From Rahnella bruchi (GTDB lineage: Bacteria > Pseudomonadota > Gammaproteobacteria > Enterobacterales > Enterobacteriaceae), in NCBI RefSeq assembly GCF_003614975.1, contig NZ_QZWI01000001.1, positions 744,001-808,000 of the forward strand: 64,000 nt of DNA. Reading direction: 5' to 3'. Below, in pieces: positions 59,729-63,572 of the stretch (positions are counted from its first letter, which is position 1; every line of letters starts with the position of its first letter). Both the position numbers and the translations under genes were made by a program. The notes below the pieces were generated by a model. That model saw nothing but the letters and a program-made list of their open reading frames with translations, made no database searches and was not told where the DNA came from.

Positions 59729-59775
59729 TTGAACCGGAAAACAGATGGGTGCATACTTATTGTTATAGTATAACA
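59729..59775 (+). promoter_or_regulatory. rpmE2 promoter with Zur operator
   Basis: TTGAAC (59729-59734) and CATACT (59752-59757) are 17 bp apart. The predicted start falls inside TGTTATAGTATAACA (59761-59775), a near-perfect Zur dyad of the TGTTATAnTATAACA type. Zur with zinc should block transcription. Confidence 0.85.
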
Positions 59776-59792
59776 TAACAAATTGAGGCATT

Positions 59793-60047
59793 ATGAAACC
59801 CACTATCCATCCTGCATATCGCACCGTGGTTTTCCACGACACCAGTGCTGATGAGTACTTCAAGGTCGGTTCAACTATCTCGACAGACCGCACCATTGAA
59901 CTGGAAGGGGCTACCTACCCTTATATCACAATTGAAGTTTCTTCAGCTTCCCATCCGTATTACACCGGTAAGCAGAAAGAGTATTCAAAAGAAGGCAGCA
60001 CCGCGCGATTCAATCAACGCTTCGGCAGCTTCCTCGGTAAGAAGTAA
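59793..60047 (+). CDS. rpmE2: Ribosomal protein L31 type B (zinc-independent)
   Basis: An 84-residue L31 paralogue (YkgM). It has no cysteine at all, so it lacks the zinc ribbon of the housekeeping L31 and can replace it when zinc is short, freeing zinc. The [24 protein letters not shown] opening and the [11 protein letters not shown] tail are typical. It sits 17 bp after a Zur box and is followed by rpmJ2, as in the E. coli ykgMO operon. Confidence 0.96.
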
Positions 60048-60067
60048 ACAACATCAGGGAAATTGTT

Positions 60068-60208
60068 ATGCAGGTTCTGAGTTCATTACGTTCAGCGAAA
60101 AAACGTCATCCGGATTGTCGTGTAGTGCGCCGTAAAGGCCGCATTTATGTGATCTGTAAAAGTAATCCGCGCTTTAAAGCCGTACAGGGCAAAAAGAAAA
60201 AGCGTTAA
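60068..60208 (+). CDS. rpmJ2: Ribosomal protein L36 type B (zinc-independent)
   Basis: A 46-residue L36 paralogue (YkgO). It reads [17 protein letters not shown] and ends [11 protein letters not shown], like E. coli YkgO. Two cysteines remain but the full four-ligand zinc knuckle of the housekeeping L36 is missing. It starts 20 bp after rpmE2 and shares its Zur-controlled promoter. Confidence 0.95.
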
Positions 60209-60333: not shown

Positions 60334-61212
60334 TTATTTCATACTGGCAACAATCGTCTCAACGTTATGTTTGAACGCTTTGATATAGGTTGTGGCCGGC
60401 CCCTGGGGGCCTGACAACGCTTCCGGATACAGTTCACCACCAGGTTGCGCGCCGCTCGCCGCAGCAATCTGTTTCACCAGGCGGGGATCGGTCTGGTTTT
60501 CGATGAAGTAAGTTTTCACTTTCTCCGCTTTGATCTGCTTAATTAACGAAGCCACACCGCTGGCACTGGCTTCAGCTTCGGTTGAGAAACCGACAGGCGC
60601 CATAAAGCTGACGTGATATTCCTGACCAAAATAACCAAACGCATCATGGCTGGTCAGCACTTTACGTTTTGACTGGGGTATACCGGTGAATTCCGTTTTT
60701 GCCCACGCATCAAGTTTTTGCAGTTGCTCAATATAGGCCGTTCCGCGCTGGCGGAAATAGTCAGCATCTTCCGGATCGGCTTTGATCAGCGCATTCATTA
60801 CATTGGTCGCATAAATTACGCCATTCGCCATGCTGTTCCAGGCGTGAGGGTCGGTGATTTGCTTGCCGTCTTCTTCCATTTTGCGGGAATTAACGCCCTC
60901 AGATGCCGTCACTAAATGACCTTTATATCCGGAAGCCGTCACCAGACGATCAATCCAACCTTCCAGACCTAACCCGCTGACGAATACGACATCAGAGCTA
61001 TTAATCGCTTTGCTGTCTTTCGGCGAAGGCTCGAAGCTGTGCGGATCACCGTCCGGCCCGACTAACGTCGTGACTTTCACGTGTTCGCCACCCACTTCCT
61101 GAACGATATCCCCGAGAATGGAGAAACTGGCTACCGCTTCCACAGTTTTCGCCATGGCCAGCGGGCTCGACAGCAGGGCAGCTACTGCGAGTGATACAGG
61201 TAATACTTTCAT
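60334..61212 (-). CDS. Zinc-type ABC transporter binding protein
   Basis: A 292-residue periplasmic cluster A-I (cluster 9) metal binding protein with a signal peptide of about 21 residues ending AMAK. The likely metal ligands are the histidines in GDPHSFEPS, TDPHAWNS and TSHDAFGYFG; a histidine rather than glutamate at the third site points to zinc, not manganese. It lacks the long His-rich loop of ZnuA, so it is a second, distinct system. The ATG at 61212 is spaced five bases from AAGGGG; the preceding ATG is too close. It is the last gene of a Zur-controlled operon. Confidence 0.88.
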   Translation of the reverse strand: MKVLPVSLAVAALLSSPLAMAKTVEAVASFSILGDIVQEVGGEHVKVTTLVGPDGDPHSFEPSPKDSKAINSSDVVFVSGLGLEGWIDRLVTASGYKGHLVTASEGVNSRKMEEDGKQITDPHAWNSMANGVIYATNVMNALIKADPEDADYFRQRGTAYIEQLQKLDAWAKTEFTGIPQSKRKVLTSHDAFGYFGQEYHVSFMAPVGFSTEAEASASGVASLIKQIKAEKVKTYFIENQTDPRLVKQIAAASGAQPGGELYPEALSGPQGPATTYIKAFKHNVETIVASMK

Positions 61213-61252
61213 CATGTCCCCTTAATTGTTGTACTACTTATTAACGTGCTGC

Positions 61253-62110
61253 TTACGTTCGCGAGGCAGTTAACATCCCGCCACGCTTTCCAAATAAAAC
61301 TGAAATAAAGAAGATCACCGTGGCGCTGAGTACGATGGACGGGCCCGCAGGCAGTGAAGCGTAGTAAGACCAGATAAGCCCGACAACGCTGGCAATCACG
61401 CCGATGATCATGGCGCTCAGCAGGGTATGGGGTAAATCCTGCGCCCAGAAACGCGCGCTTGCCGCAGGTAACATCATCAAACCAACCGACATCAGTGTGC
61501 CGAGGATCTGGAAACCGGCGACAAGGTTCACGACCACCAGCGCCAGGAAAATCCCATGTATCGCCGCCAGCCATTTTCCCGCGCTGACGCGTAAAAACAG
61601 CGAATCAAAAGATTCAATGACCAGAGCGCGATAAATGCAGGCGAGTACCAGCAATGACACGCTGGTAATTATGCCGACCATAATCATGGCGGAAGAGTCG
61701 ATAGCGAGAATAGATCCAAACAGAACGTGCAGAAGGTCAACACTGGAACCGCGCAGGGAAACCAGTGTGACACCCAGCGCGAGCGAGCCCAGATAGAAAC
61801 CGGCGAAACTGGCATCTTCCTTTAGTTGCGTCCGACGGCTTACCAGCCCGGAAAGCATCGCAACCGCCAGTCCTGCAATAAAACCGCCGATCCCCATCGC
61901 GACCAGCGACATTCCCGATATCAGATAACCAATCGCCGCACCCGGTAATACGGCGTGGGAAAGTGCGTCCCCTACCAGACTCATCCGGCGTAATAGGAGG
62001 AAAACACCCAGAGGCGTGGCGCTGATGGATAAAGCGATACAGGCAATTAACGCGCGGCGCATGAAACCAAACTCAATGAAGGGGTCGGCCAGCAAATGGA
62101 AAAGCATCAT
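61253..62110 (-). CDS. Zinc-type ABC transporter permease
   Basis: A 285-residue permease of the ABC-3 (ZnuB/TroC) family with about eight membrane helices and the family stretch RRMSLVGDALSHAVLPGAAIGYL. Its ATG overlaps the stop of the ATPase gene (ATGA) and GGGAG lies ten bases upstream. The binding-protein gene follows after about 40 bp. Confidence 0.92.
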   Translation of the reverse strand: MMLFHLLADPFIEFGFMRRALIACIALSISATPLGVFLLLRRMSLVGDALSHAVLPGAAIGYLISGMSLVAMGIGGFIAGLAVAMLSGLVSRRTQLKEDASFAGFYLGSLALGVTLVSLRGSSVDLLHVLFGSILAIDSSAMIMVGIITSVSLLVLACIYRALVIESFDSLFLRVSAGKWLAAIHGIFLALVVVNLVAGFQILGTLMSVGLMMLPAASARFWAQDLPHTLLSAMIIGVIASVVGLIWSYYASLPAGPSIVLSATVIFFISVLFGKRGGMLTASRT

Positions 62111-62835
62111 GAATTGGCGACTCCCGCCACGAGAGAAAAAGGTTCGGTCGAAATACAGGCATGCGCCTGATGCGGGAAGTGCCCCAGAACGTCGTGGGCG
62201 GTTCCCCACAAATTCTTCTGCGCGCTGAGATAGAGCACATGTGGAAAATGCCGGGCAACCATTGAGATATCATGTAAAACCGCAATGACGGTTTTTCCTT
62301 CCTGATGCCACCGGGCAATAACCTTGAGCAAAAGATCAGTTGTCTGGGTATCAATGCCGGTAAAGGGTTCATCAAGCATGATCAGGGGCGCCTGTTGCAC
62401 CAGCAAACGCGCGAATAAAGTGCGTTGCAGTTGGCCTCCGGAAAGCGATCCAACGGGCAAATGCGACATTTCTGTCATCCCGACCGTCTCCAGCGCCTTA
62501 GCCACGGCGTCAGCTGACTGCTGATTTATGCCGCCAAAAAGTCCGCTTTGCGGCCAACAGCCCATCGCGACCAGATCGAATACGCTGATCGGAAAACCGC
62601 GATCCAATTCGGCCTGCTGTGGCAAATATGCCAGACGCGGACGCTTGTTTCCGTTAAAAGTAATATTGCCGGTAACCGCCTGCTGAAGGCCTGCCAGCGT
62701 TTTAAGGAAAGTAGATTTACCCGCTCCGTTGGCCCCGATAACAGCCGTCAGTGAACCGGCAAGAAATTGCCCGCTGATTGGCATCGCGACCGCCCGGCGG
62801 TCATAACCAACCTCAACATTATTAACAAAAATCAT
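62107..62835 (-). CDS. Zinc-type ABC transporter ATP-binding protein
   Basis: A 242-residue ATPase with Walker A GANGAGKST, signature LSGGQLQRTLFARL, Walker B LIMLDEPFTG and switch VLHDIS. I place the start at 62835 because an upstream reading would run through a separate 35-codon ORF in another frame that has the good ribosome site. That ORF's stop overlaps this ATG (ATGA), and this gene has no ribosome site of its own, so its translation probably depends on the small ORF. Confidence 0.9.
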   Translation of the reverse strand: MIFVNNVEVGYDRRAVAMPISGQFLAGSLTAVIGANGAGKSTFLKTLAGLQQAVTGNITFNGNKRPRLAYLPQQAELDRGFPISVFDLVAMGCWPQSGLFGGINQQSADAVAKALETVGMTEMSHLPVGSLSGGQLQRTLFARLLVQQAPLIMLDEPFTGIDTQTTDLLLKVIARWHQEGKTVIAVLHDISMVARHFPHVLYLSAQKNLWGTAHDVLGHFPHQAHACISTEPFSLVAGVANS

Positions 62836-62939
62836 GGTAGTGAAATTGCCCAGTAAATTGCTGCCCATAAAACAGCGAGCACAGCCAGCACGGCAAGACA
62901 GCGCGCTGGCGAAGATAGTGTAAAGAGTGTTTTGGTCAT
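62832..62939 (-). CDS. 35-residue putative membrane peptide, Zur-linked
   Basis: The frame starts ATG at 62939 after GGAGGGG, the strongest ribosome site in the operon, and reads MTKTLFTLSSPARCL, then a hydrophobic helix AVLAVLAVLWAAIYWAISLP to a TGA. The stop overlaps the ATPase start as ATGA. A Zur-type box lies 14 bases upstream of the ATG. The helix suggests a single-pass small membrane protein; alternatively it is only a leader for coupling. I know no named family. Confidence 0.65.
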   Translation of the reverse strand: MTKTLFTLSSPARCLAVLAVLAVLWAAIYWAISLP

Positions 62940-62952
62940 AGCCCCTCCGTTC

Positions 62953-62989
62953 GTTACAATATAACATCACATAGTGCGTTTTGTATCAA
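62953..62989 (-). promoter_or_regulatory. Promoter and Zur-type operator of the zinc ABC operon
   Basis: On minus, TTGATA (62984-62989) and TGTTAT (62961-62966) are 17 bp apart. The dyad GTTATATTGTAAC (62953-62965) overlaps the -10 and is one mismatch per arm from the Zur consensus GTTATAnTATAAC. Confidence 0.75.
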
Positions 62990-63218: not shown

Positions 63219-63572
63219 GTGAAAAAATTTATCCCCTACCCTATTAAGGGGAAAAATCTGACTCCTTCAGATTTGCTGCAGATTATTGAACGTTATTTAT
63301 CTGAAATTGAAGAATCCTTAATTGGCGATTTAACTTATTTCTCAGAAAATGCACGTTATGAACCGAATTCTTTGCAAATCGTGTCAATCGCTGCAATCGG
63401 CGAAAATTGTTATTCGATGAGCTATCAGTACCGATGGACGATTTTCAACGGCTGCCTGGACATTAATGCCAATGAGTTTTCGACGCAAAGTGTCACATTC
63501 CTTGTTAAACCTGAAGGCCTGGAGTTTGATATTATTGATTTGTTCAAAGGTTCGACGGCTGAAGAATTGTAA
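63219..63572 (+). CDS. Hypothetical protein
   Basis: A 117-residue protein I do not recognise. It starts with GTG after AAAGG (nine-base gap) and reads KKFIPYPIKGKNLTPSDLLQ. It is acidic in the N-terminal half, mixed alpha/beta by eye, with two cysteines and no signal peptide or membrane helix. The composition is AT-rich, unlike its neighbours. It lies alone between the zinc operon and tomB with its own AT-rich upstream region. The size and charge are compatible with an immunity or adaptor protein, but there is no evidence for either. Confidence 0.65.
   Translation: MKKFIPYPIKGKNLTPSDLLQIIERYLSEIEESLIGDLTYFSENARYEPNSLQIVSIAAIGENCYSMSYQYRWTIFNGCLDINANEFSTQSVTFLVKPEGLEFDIIDLFKGSTAEEL

Follow-up and report, generated by a model that had tools for sequence, protein, structure and literature searches.

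A conserved 35-codon frame ahead of the ATPase gene as a candidate first gene of Zur-controlled zniCBA-type zinc importer operons

The window, by which we mean the whole 64,000-nucleotide stretch that was analyzed, is part of a 5.5-Mb genome, and the nearest named ATPases are those of Rahnella, with 98% identity in R. woolbedingensis, for which reason the window and the other genomes of its genus are taken here as Rahnella. Its minus strand carries an importer operon in which a small frame lies between a Zur-like box and an ATPase gene of the AztA/ZniC type. The features of this region are the following:

59761..59775, no strand assigned: perfect Zur-like palindrome in front of rpmE2-rpmJ2
59793..60208, plus strand: genes for the type B ribosomal proteins L31 (59793-60047) and L36 (60068-60208), by family matches
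60334..61215, minus strand: zinc-binding protein, ZniA type
61253..62110, minus strand: membrane permease, AztB/ZniB type
62107..62835, minus strand: ATP-binding subunit, AztA/ZniC type, 242 aa, with a weak ribosome site of its own
62832..62939, minus strand: gene 1 of the operon, encoding a predicted small single-helix membrane protein of 35 aa, MTKTLFTLSSPARCLAVLAVLAVLWAAIYWAISLP
62942..62948, minus strand: ribosome-binding site GGAGGGG of the small gene
62952..62966, no strand assigned: Zur-like palindrome TGTTATATTGTAACG, 15-base core

A recheck of the sequence returned the 35-codon frame exactly as the original prediction had placed it, with its ATG at 62939-62937 and, within the string CCATGA, a TGA (62834-62832) that overlaps the ATPase ATG (62835-62833). 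Calculated pairing with the anti-Shine-Dalgarno tail of the 16S rRNA was -10.0 kcal/mol for the small gene versus -2.4 kcal/mol for the ATPase, in agreement with the earlier view that the ATPase has no good ribosome site of its own. The same calculation gave -6.9 for the permease (GGGAG) and, for the binding-protein gene, -8.3 at the second ATG (AAGGGG) and -4.7 at the first. GGAGGGG had also been described as the only strong site of the operon; it is indeed the strongest, but not the sole good one, and among the four genes it is only the ATPase whose calculated site is weak. The first ATG of the permease overlaps the ATPase stop, while a mechanical listing of open reading frames starts the permease upstream at 62209. 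These overlaps and the short gaps suggest that the operon is co-transcribed.

The type B L31 and L36 genes next to the operon are typical members of Zur regulons. For the importer itself, Pfam matches were PF01297 for the binding protein (277.5 bits), PF00950 for the permease (175.1 bits) and PF00005 for the ATPase (86.9 bits), so that a zinc-type binding protein, an ABC-3 permease and an ATPase stand in one operon, as in cluster A-I importers of the ZniCBA/AztABC type. The scores stayed below the AztABC equivalog cutoffs (NF040873 AztA, 203 bits for a cutoff of 220; NF040871 AztB, 250.6 for 280; AztC, 269.9 for 350), and the best PDB match of the binding protein was 8SVC (E 1.3e-124), which is ZniA of K. 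pneumoniae as described in passages of PMC10797113. Because the AztABC matches are below cutoff, so that the genes are related to these equivalogs but do not belong to them, and the best PDB match is ZniA, we describe the operon as zniCBA type; the Pfam and PDB matches uphold its assignment as a zinc importer. AztD was absent from the 64-kb window and from loci L234-L241 in a tblastn search with two AztD queries, one of them partial. Divergent from the operon lies a 117-aa ORF with a GTG start (63219-63572, plus strand), for which Pfam returned nothing and NCBIfam nothing significant.

A Zur-type box had been placed 14 bases before the small gene; the box is present, but its core ends 12 bases before the ATG. 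The core has 2 mismatches to TGTTATANNATAACA, which we take to be the Zur consensus and against which all Zur-like boxes here were scored, the operon carrying a Zur-regulon-type palindrome on that scoring. In the whole window, TGTTATANNATAACA at up to 3 mismatches occurred 14 times versus a shuffle mean of 9.66, and 17 of 100 shuffles reached 14. Since the pattern is no commoner window-wide than in shuffles, the case for this box is made by its position and its conservation. A box with at most 3 mismatches was found upstream in all 75 Enterobacterales-type loci (all 65 distinct ones), and an alignment of 8 named Rahnella genomes with 2 outgroups contains it, a TTG being conserved as well. A sigma-70 scan returned no minus-strand match at the promoter, and the conserved TTG together with the box suggests that the -10 element may lie inside the Zur-like box. 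Expression of the relatives under zinc limitation is reported in passages of PMC10797113 and PMC12183173.

The conservation check proposed with the original prediction was run within the genus. An ATPase match was found in 13 of 14 genomes, and all 13 carried the small frame intact with 35 codons. Its pN/pS over all pairs was 0.16, compared with 0.097 for the ATPase proper, these sequences being related and the pairwise counts therefore not independent. A column-shuffle control, which preserves columns but not phylogeny and skips codons turned into stops, had a mean of 0.85, and 0 of 300 shuffles were as low as the observed value. Variable columns were distributed 8/7/22 over the three codon positions of the 35 codons. 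When the same DNA was read in the ATPase frame, pN/pS rose to 1.69 and stops appeared in 3 of 13 genomes, while the third frame had a stop in 13 of 13. This contrast, together with the stops, indicates that the small frame is selected as a protein and that the ATPase does not reach over it. The outcome was thus the reverse of a broken small frame beside a preserved upstream ATPase frame, which had been named as the refuting case. In the remaining genus genome (G002), neither an ATPase match nor a match to the small-protein profile was found; we count this shared absence for linkage of the two genes, with the reservation that the assembly has 650 contigs and the double absence may be a gap in it.

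The same data bear on whether the small frame could be the N-terminus of a longer ATPase starting at the GTG at 62970, or be joined to the ATPase by frameshifting. In the window, no stop interrupts the ATPase frame upstream as far as 62970, and the annotation of E. coli KC-Dl-1 has an ATPase start upstream that spans the small frame. Against this stand the substitution ratio and the stops in that frame, as well as the stop and the gap that separate the two frames in many relatives; codon pattern, stops and gaps rule out such an extension or fusion, to which we give next to no credence. That annotators extend the ATPase over the frame, as had been anticipated, is true of E. coli KC-Dl-1, but records of K. 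aerogenes NCTC10006, Skermanella rosea, Thioclava and Comamonas list a separate nameless protein ("Uncharacterised" or "hypothetical"). In the K. aerogenes record (L036), mltB beside the zni operon is annotated as three consecutive pieces (1580-2712), possibly through a sequencing or assembly error. With a coding signature in the genus and conservation across the phylum, the small frame is beyond chance and, as far as sequence comparison goes, almost certainly a real gene.

To determine the extent of the family, whole genomes were searched with a seed profile (A1) built from 24 members. Among 349 genomes of Pseudomonadota, there were 56 matches at E 0.01 or better. Of these, 49 lay 5' of a same-strand ATPase match, from a one-base overlap up to 83 bases upstream; the other 7 were weak (E 2.5e-4 to 9.8e-3). 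Non-seed genomes contributed 44 of the 49 linked matches, the remaining five coming from seed suppliers (G000, G032, G042, G044 and G053). At this genome-wide threshold, 49 of the 93 ATPase places in the sample had a match. When ATPase-upstream regions were searched directly, A1 alone passed 68 of 109, and an iterated profile applied to the 450 bases before the ATPase found the small frame in 162 of 207 loci (local E 0.01 or better), or in 152 of 197 distinct regions, with 0 of 207 on the reverse strand; as this profile was trained on the very regions that it scored, the independent figure is that of the 349-genome search. The 207 loci include ten duplicates, in which a place had been retrieved a second time; totals given in this text as 162, 122 and 75 include such duplicates, and 152, 112 and 65 exclude them. 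A diverged copy was recognizable by eye in seven of the 45 regions below threshold (L203, L206, L211, L215-L218). The upstream region of L273, with just 41 bases before the ATPase match, is too short to judge.

Carriers within Enterobacterales include Klebsiella, Enterobacter, Serratia, Yersinia, Ewingella, Rouxiella and E. coli KC-Dl-1; further named carriers are Thioclava, Azospirillum, Skermanella, Bartonella, Rhizobium, Komagataeibacter, Comamonas and Neisseria. The small protein precedes the ATPase in alpha-, beta- and gammaproteobacteria alike. The original prediction had presented the frame as new at this locus, which holds but understates the finding, as the small gene recurs throughout the ZniCBA class. 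Three reduced genomes of 0.8-1.4 Mb keep it (L021, L022, L027), and in a fourth, of 1.0 Mb (L029), the ATPase is kept and the small gene is absent. DNA-level matches to the ATPase region occurred in 6 of 5426 E. coli genomes; in E. coli KC-Dl-1 (L034), the operon adjoins a frameshifted IS630-family transposase, with hlyC about 1 kb off, which suggests that it arrived on a mobile island. One record, titled Mycobacterium sp. KBS0706 (L271), has an ATPase that groups with that of Inquilinus limosus at near-zero distance and is probably mislabelled.

This linkage bears on what the protein could act on. Some small stress proteins, such as MgtS, MntS and AcrZ, act on partners encoded elsewhere, and the product could likewise be a free-standing effector of zinc starvation that merely shares the promoter and is directed at a different membrane protein (ZnuB, an exporter or a protease). 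The fact that 49 of the 56 profile matches adjoin one type of ATPase, in an order constant across three classes, points to the importer instead and makes a free-standing effector distinctly unlikely.

At the protein level, an alignment of 148 family members showed a pattern of roughly [ST]-x4-S-x3-R-L-x9-L-W-x2-I-x-W-A. Its Arg, Arg13 in the window protein, was invariant (148/148), and L was found in 137 rows, W in 132, the second W in 120 and A in 122, with LW and WA both above 80%. Over all 162 passing loci, 161 had Arg and one had Lys (L204); Lys was also seen by eye at the Arg place in L203 and L206, two diverged copies below threshold. The protein has 35 residues in the window and about 33-49 in relatives. 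Each of the 162 had one strong hydrophobic stretch (hydropathy of at least 1.69 in the best 18-residue segment), followed by a tail with a median of 3 residues, and in 153 the ten residues before the stretch were more basic than the tail, for which reason the N-terminus is predicted to be inside. An AlphaFold2 model showed nothing but helix, spanning residues 5-33 (mean pLDDT 85.3, pTM 0.49). Hydropathy and the AlphaFold2 prediction therefore agree with the single hydrophobic helix that had been claimed for the frame, and charge bias is in line with it at the level of prediction. For the window protein, the predicted topology places the N-terminus in the cytoplasm, Arg13 of the single helix at the inner face of the membrane, and a nearly bare C-terminus outside.

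Two variations on this plan were observed. Some window-class versions (L175, L177, L185, L189) have a His-rich stretch before the helix, for example HTHRHNKEGPCHF, which, if coding, could possibly bind metal on the cytoplasmic side. Seven loci (L117, L118, L120-L122, L125, L129; family code f63), which we guess to be Bradyrhizobium-like, have the variant SILRMT...RL...LW, in which the Arg and LW are kept and the WA motif is absent. We also looked for a catalogued family to which the protein could belong. None of the 24 members tested matched Pfam or NCBIfam at E 0.1, the window peptide alone gave a single chance-level NCBIfam match (E 0.57), and no chain among PDB sequences matched it at E 1; membership in a known small-protein family of Pfam-A, NCBIfam or the PDB sequences was therefore rejected for want of a significant match.

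The overlap with the ATPase start raises the question of whether the peptide matters at all, since the frame could be a coupling leader only, which brings ribosomes to the weak ATPase start through termination-reinitiation while the peptide is idle; in a variant of this idea, a Leu-Pro-stop end slows termination and tunes re-initiation. The pairing values of the two sites fit such a leader, and so does the ATGA overlap, which is shared by 111 of the 162 loci (101 of 152 without duplicates). Many Enterobacterales members also end in LP-stop, but this end is missing in many more distant ones. With ATPase starts picked by script as the nearest in-frame start, a gap separates the small gene from the ATPase in 44 of 162 loci, and 48 of 118 overlapping or abutting ATPases have a site of their own of -6 or better; that of Skermanella reaches -11.7. 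A mere leader, moreover, need not keep its Arg in every row, its LW and WA motifs and a low pN/pS. Amino acid constraint and the gapped arrangement together argue against a pure coupling leader, which we regard as unlikely, and coupling to the ATPase is probably a second role of the small gene. The original prediction had left the choice between a small zinc-stress membrane protein and a coupling leader: the pair is supported, with the functional membrane protein favored by the constraint in the genus and by the residue pattern shared among alpha-, beta- and gammaproteobacteria.

A different kind of leader would use the nascent helix to carry the polycistronic transcript to the membrane, where ATPase and permease would then be synthesized next to each other. 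The small gene always lies directly before the ATPase where it is found, and every passing copy has its one hydrophobic stretch, as this mechanism would have it. Hydrophobicity alone, however, leaves the conservation of Arg and Trp unexplained, and the permease could do the same job; membrane targeting as the function of the small gene is accordingly very unlikely in our estimate.

Part of the wider importer family has no small gene. In a FastTree phylogeny of 206 ATPases, presence of the gene was clustered, with 9 changes compared with a shuffled mean of 41.2. A clade of 13 rows (support 99) that sits among carriers lacks it in 13 of 13; this clade is of the AztABCD type and includes Paracoccus versutus, Sinorhizobium and the K. 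pneumoniae plasmid pBio30. The gene is absent from a second clade of 16 rows as well. The tree, whose branches are long and whose deep forks are weak, was relied on for these two clades only. The small protein is thus not found with every AztA relative, a possibility rejected because 40 of the 206 ATPases were scored without it, 29 of them in the two clades. AztD was detected in 4 of 19 loci without the small gene, a fifth (Paracoccus versutus) being known by annotation, and in 0 of 68 loci with it, 59 of which had at least 1 kb of sequence beyond the binding protein. As the AztD-bearing loci fall in one clade, we read this as one event and not as a correlation. A longer permease as replacement for the helix in AztABCD was not apparent, annotated permease lengths looking alike in the fetched records.

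The promoter geometry changes with the gene. A search of the 300 bases preceding the ATPase for boxes that differ from TGTTATANNATAACA at no more than 2 positions was positive in 135 loci, distances being measured to the start of the ATPase match. In loci with the small gene, weak copies included, the box was at least 111 nt away in 122 of 122 (112 of 112 distinct), compared with 52-80 nt in 11 of the 13 loci scored without it, so that small gene and box appear to move together. The two exceptions are L218, with a diverged copy recognizable by eye, and L174, in which inspection by eye showed no such frame and the box is at 113 nt. Frame and box touch in 5 of the 122 loci, and there the box extends over the initial residues of the profile match. 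In R. leguminosarum, a passage of PMC12183173 places the Zur motif 153 bp before zniC. The spacing seen here agrees with that distance: a stretch of this kind is filled by the small frame in Pararhizobium polonicum and R. herbae (L274, L275).

The window system has the same order of ATPase, permease and binding protein as ZniCBA of K. pneumoniae and Rhizobium leguminosarum, which is induced by zinc limitation according to passages of PMC10797113 and PMC12183173. In the passages covered, both papers name three genes only, and neither main text contains the term "small protein"; the passages describe deletion or expression of the importer genes with the small frame undiscussed. Two Klebsiella records carry it in the mltB-pncC slot that PMC10797113 describes. 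AztABCD, of the Paracoccus denitrificans type, has homologous ATPase, permease and binding protein and a reported Zur motif (passages of PMC5387054), and differs from the window system in that its clade is without the small gene and AztD accompanies some of its members. In Neisseria, the mntABC/znuCBA operon is described as having three genes, with "small protein" occurring 0 times in the available text of PMC9280163, and one N. gonorrhoeae record has a diverged small frame before the ATPase (local E 1e-4). Searches of titles, abstract starts and text passages, subscription papers being outside their scope, found no description of the small frame, and a term search of PMC10903887 and PMC11364881 returned 0 mentions of zinc or ABC transporter.

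CbiN and NikN of cobalt/nickel ECF importers resemble the window protein in being a small membrane component of a metal importer, although they have two helices and belong to a different transporter class. By kind, the protein can be likened to KdpF, CydX, TorE/NapE and AcrZ, tiny one-helix proteins that bind membrane complexes and stabilize or tune them (PMC6134056, PMC6005532 and PMC7267776). None of the complexes they serve is an ABC importer; these are a P-type ATPase, oxidases, reductases and an RND pump.

Taken together, the best reading of these comparisons is that the small gene is probably the unrecognized first gene of the Zur-controlled zniCBA class, in the order small protein, ATPase, permease and binding protein. 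On synteny and constraint, and in our own judgment, its product is probably an accessory subunit of ZniCBA-class importers that is translationally coupled to the ATPase. In such a scheme, low zinc would release Zur, and the small protein would be made first as zinc falls. Ribosomes would load at its strong site and re-initiate at the overlapping ATPase ATG, which would couple the amounts of the two proteins. The helix would then pack against the ZniB/ZniC importer and stabilize it or tune transport, as KdpF, CydX, TorE and AcrZ do for their own complexes. Weighing against a subunit are the AztABCD clade (13 of 13 rows), the 16-row clade and the reduced genome L029, all of which do without it, the 49 of 93 ATPase places with a profile match, and an Arg that is not absolute.

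For a broader claim, we consider the evidence evenly balanced: that throughout Pseudomonadota, K. pneumoniae and Neisseria included, ZniCBA-class importers would be four-component systems with a single-helix protein of about 33-49 residues and a near-invariant Arg as a constitutive regulatory subunit, which the AztABCD clade would have dropped, some of its members having AztD instead. The parts of the literature covered here treat this class of zinc importer as having three genes. Should a conserved fourth membrane component indeed be present, complementation, reconstitution and promoter-fusion work on ZniCBA would have been done unaware of the small protein, and the "promoter" stretch between the Zur box and zniC would be partly coding. 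The small gene, together with a natural clade that is without it, would offer a clean model for the role of a single-helix protein in an ABC importer.
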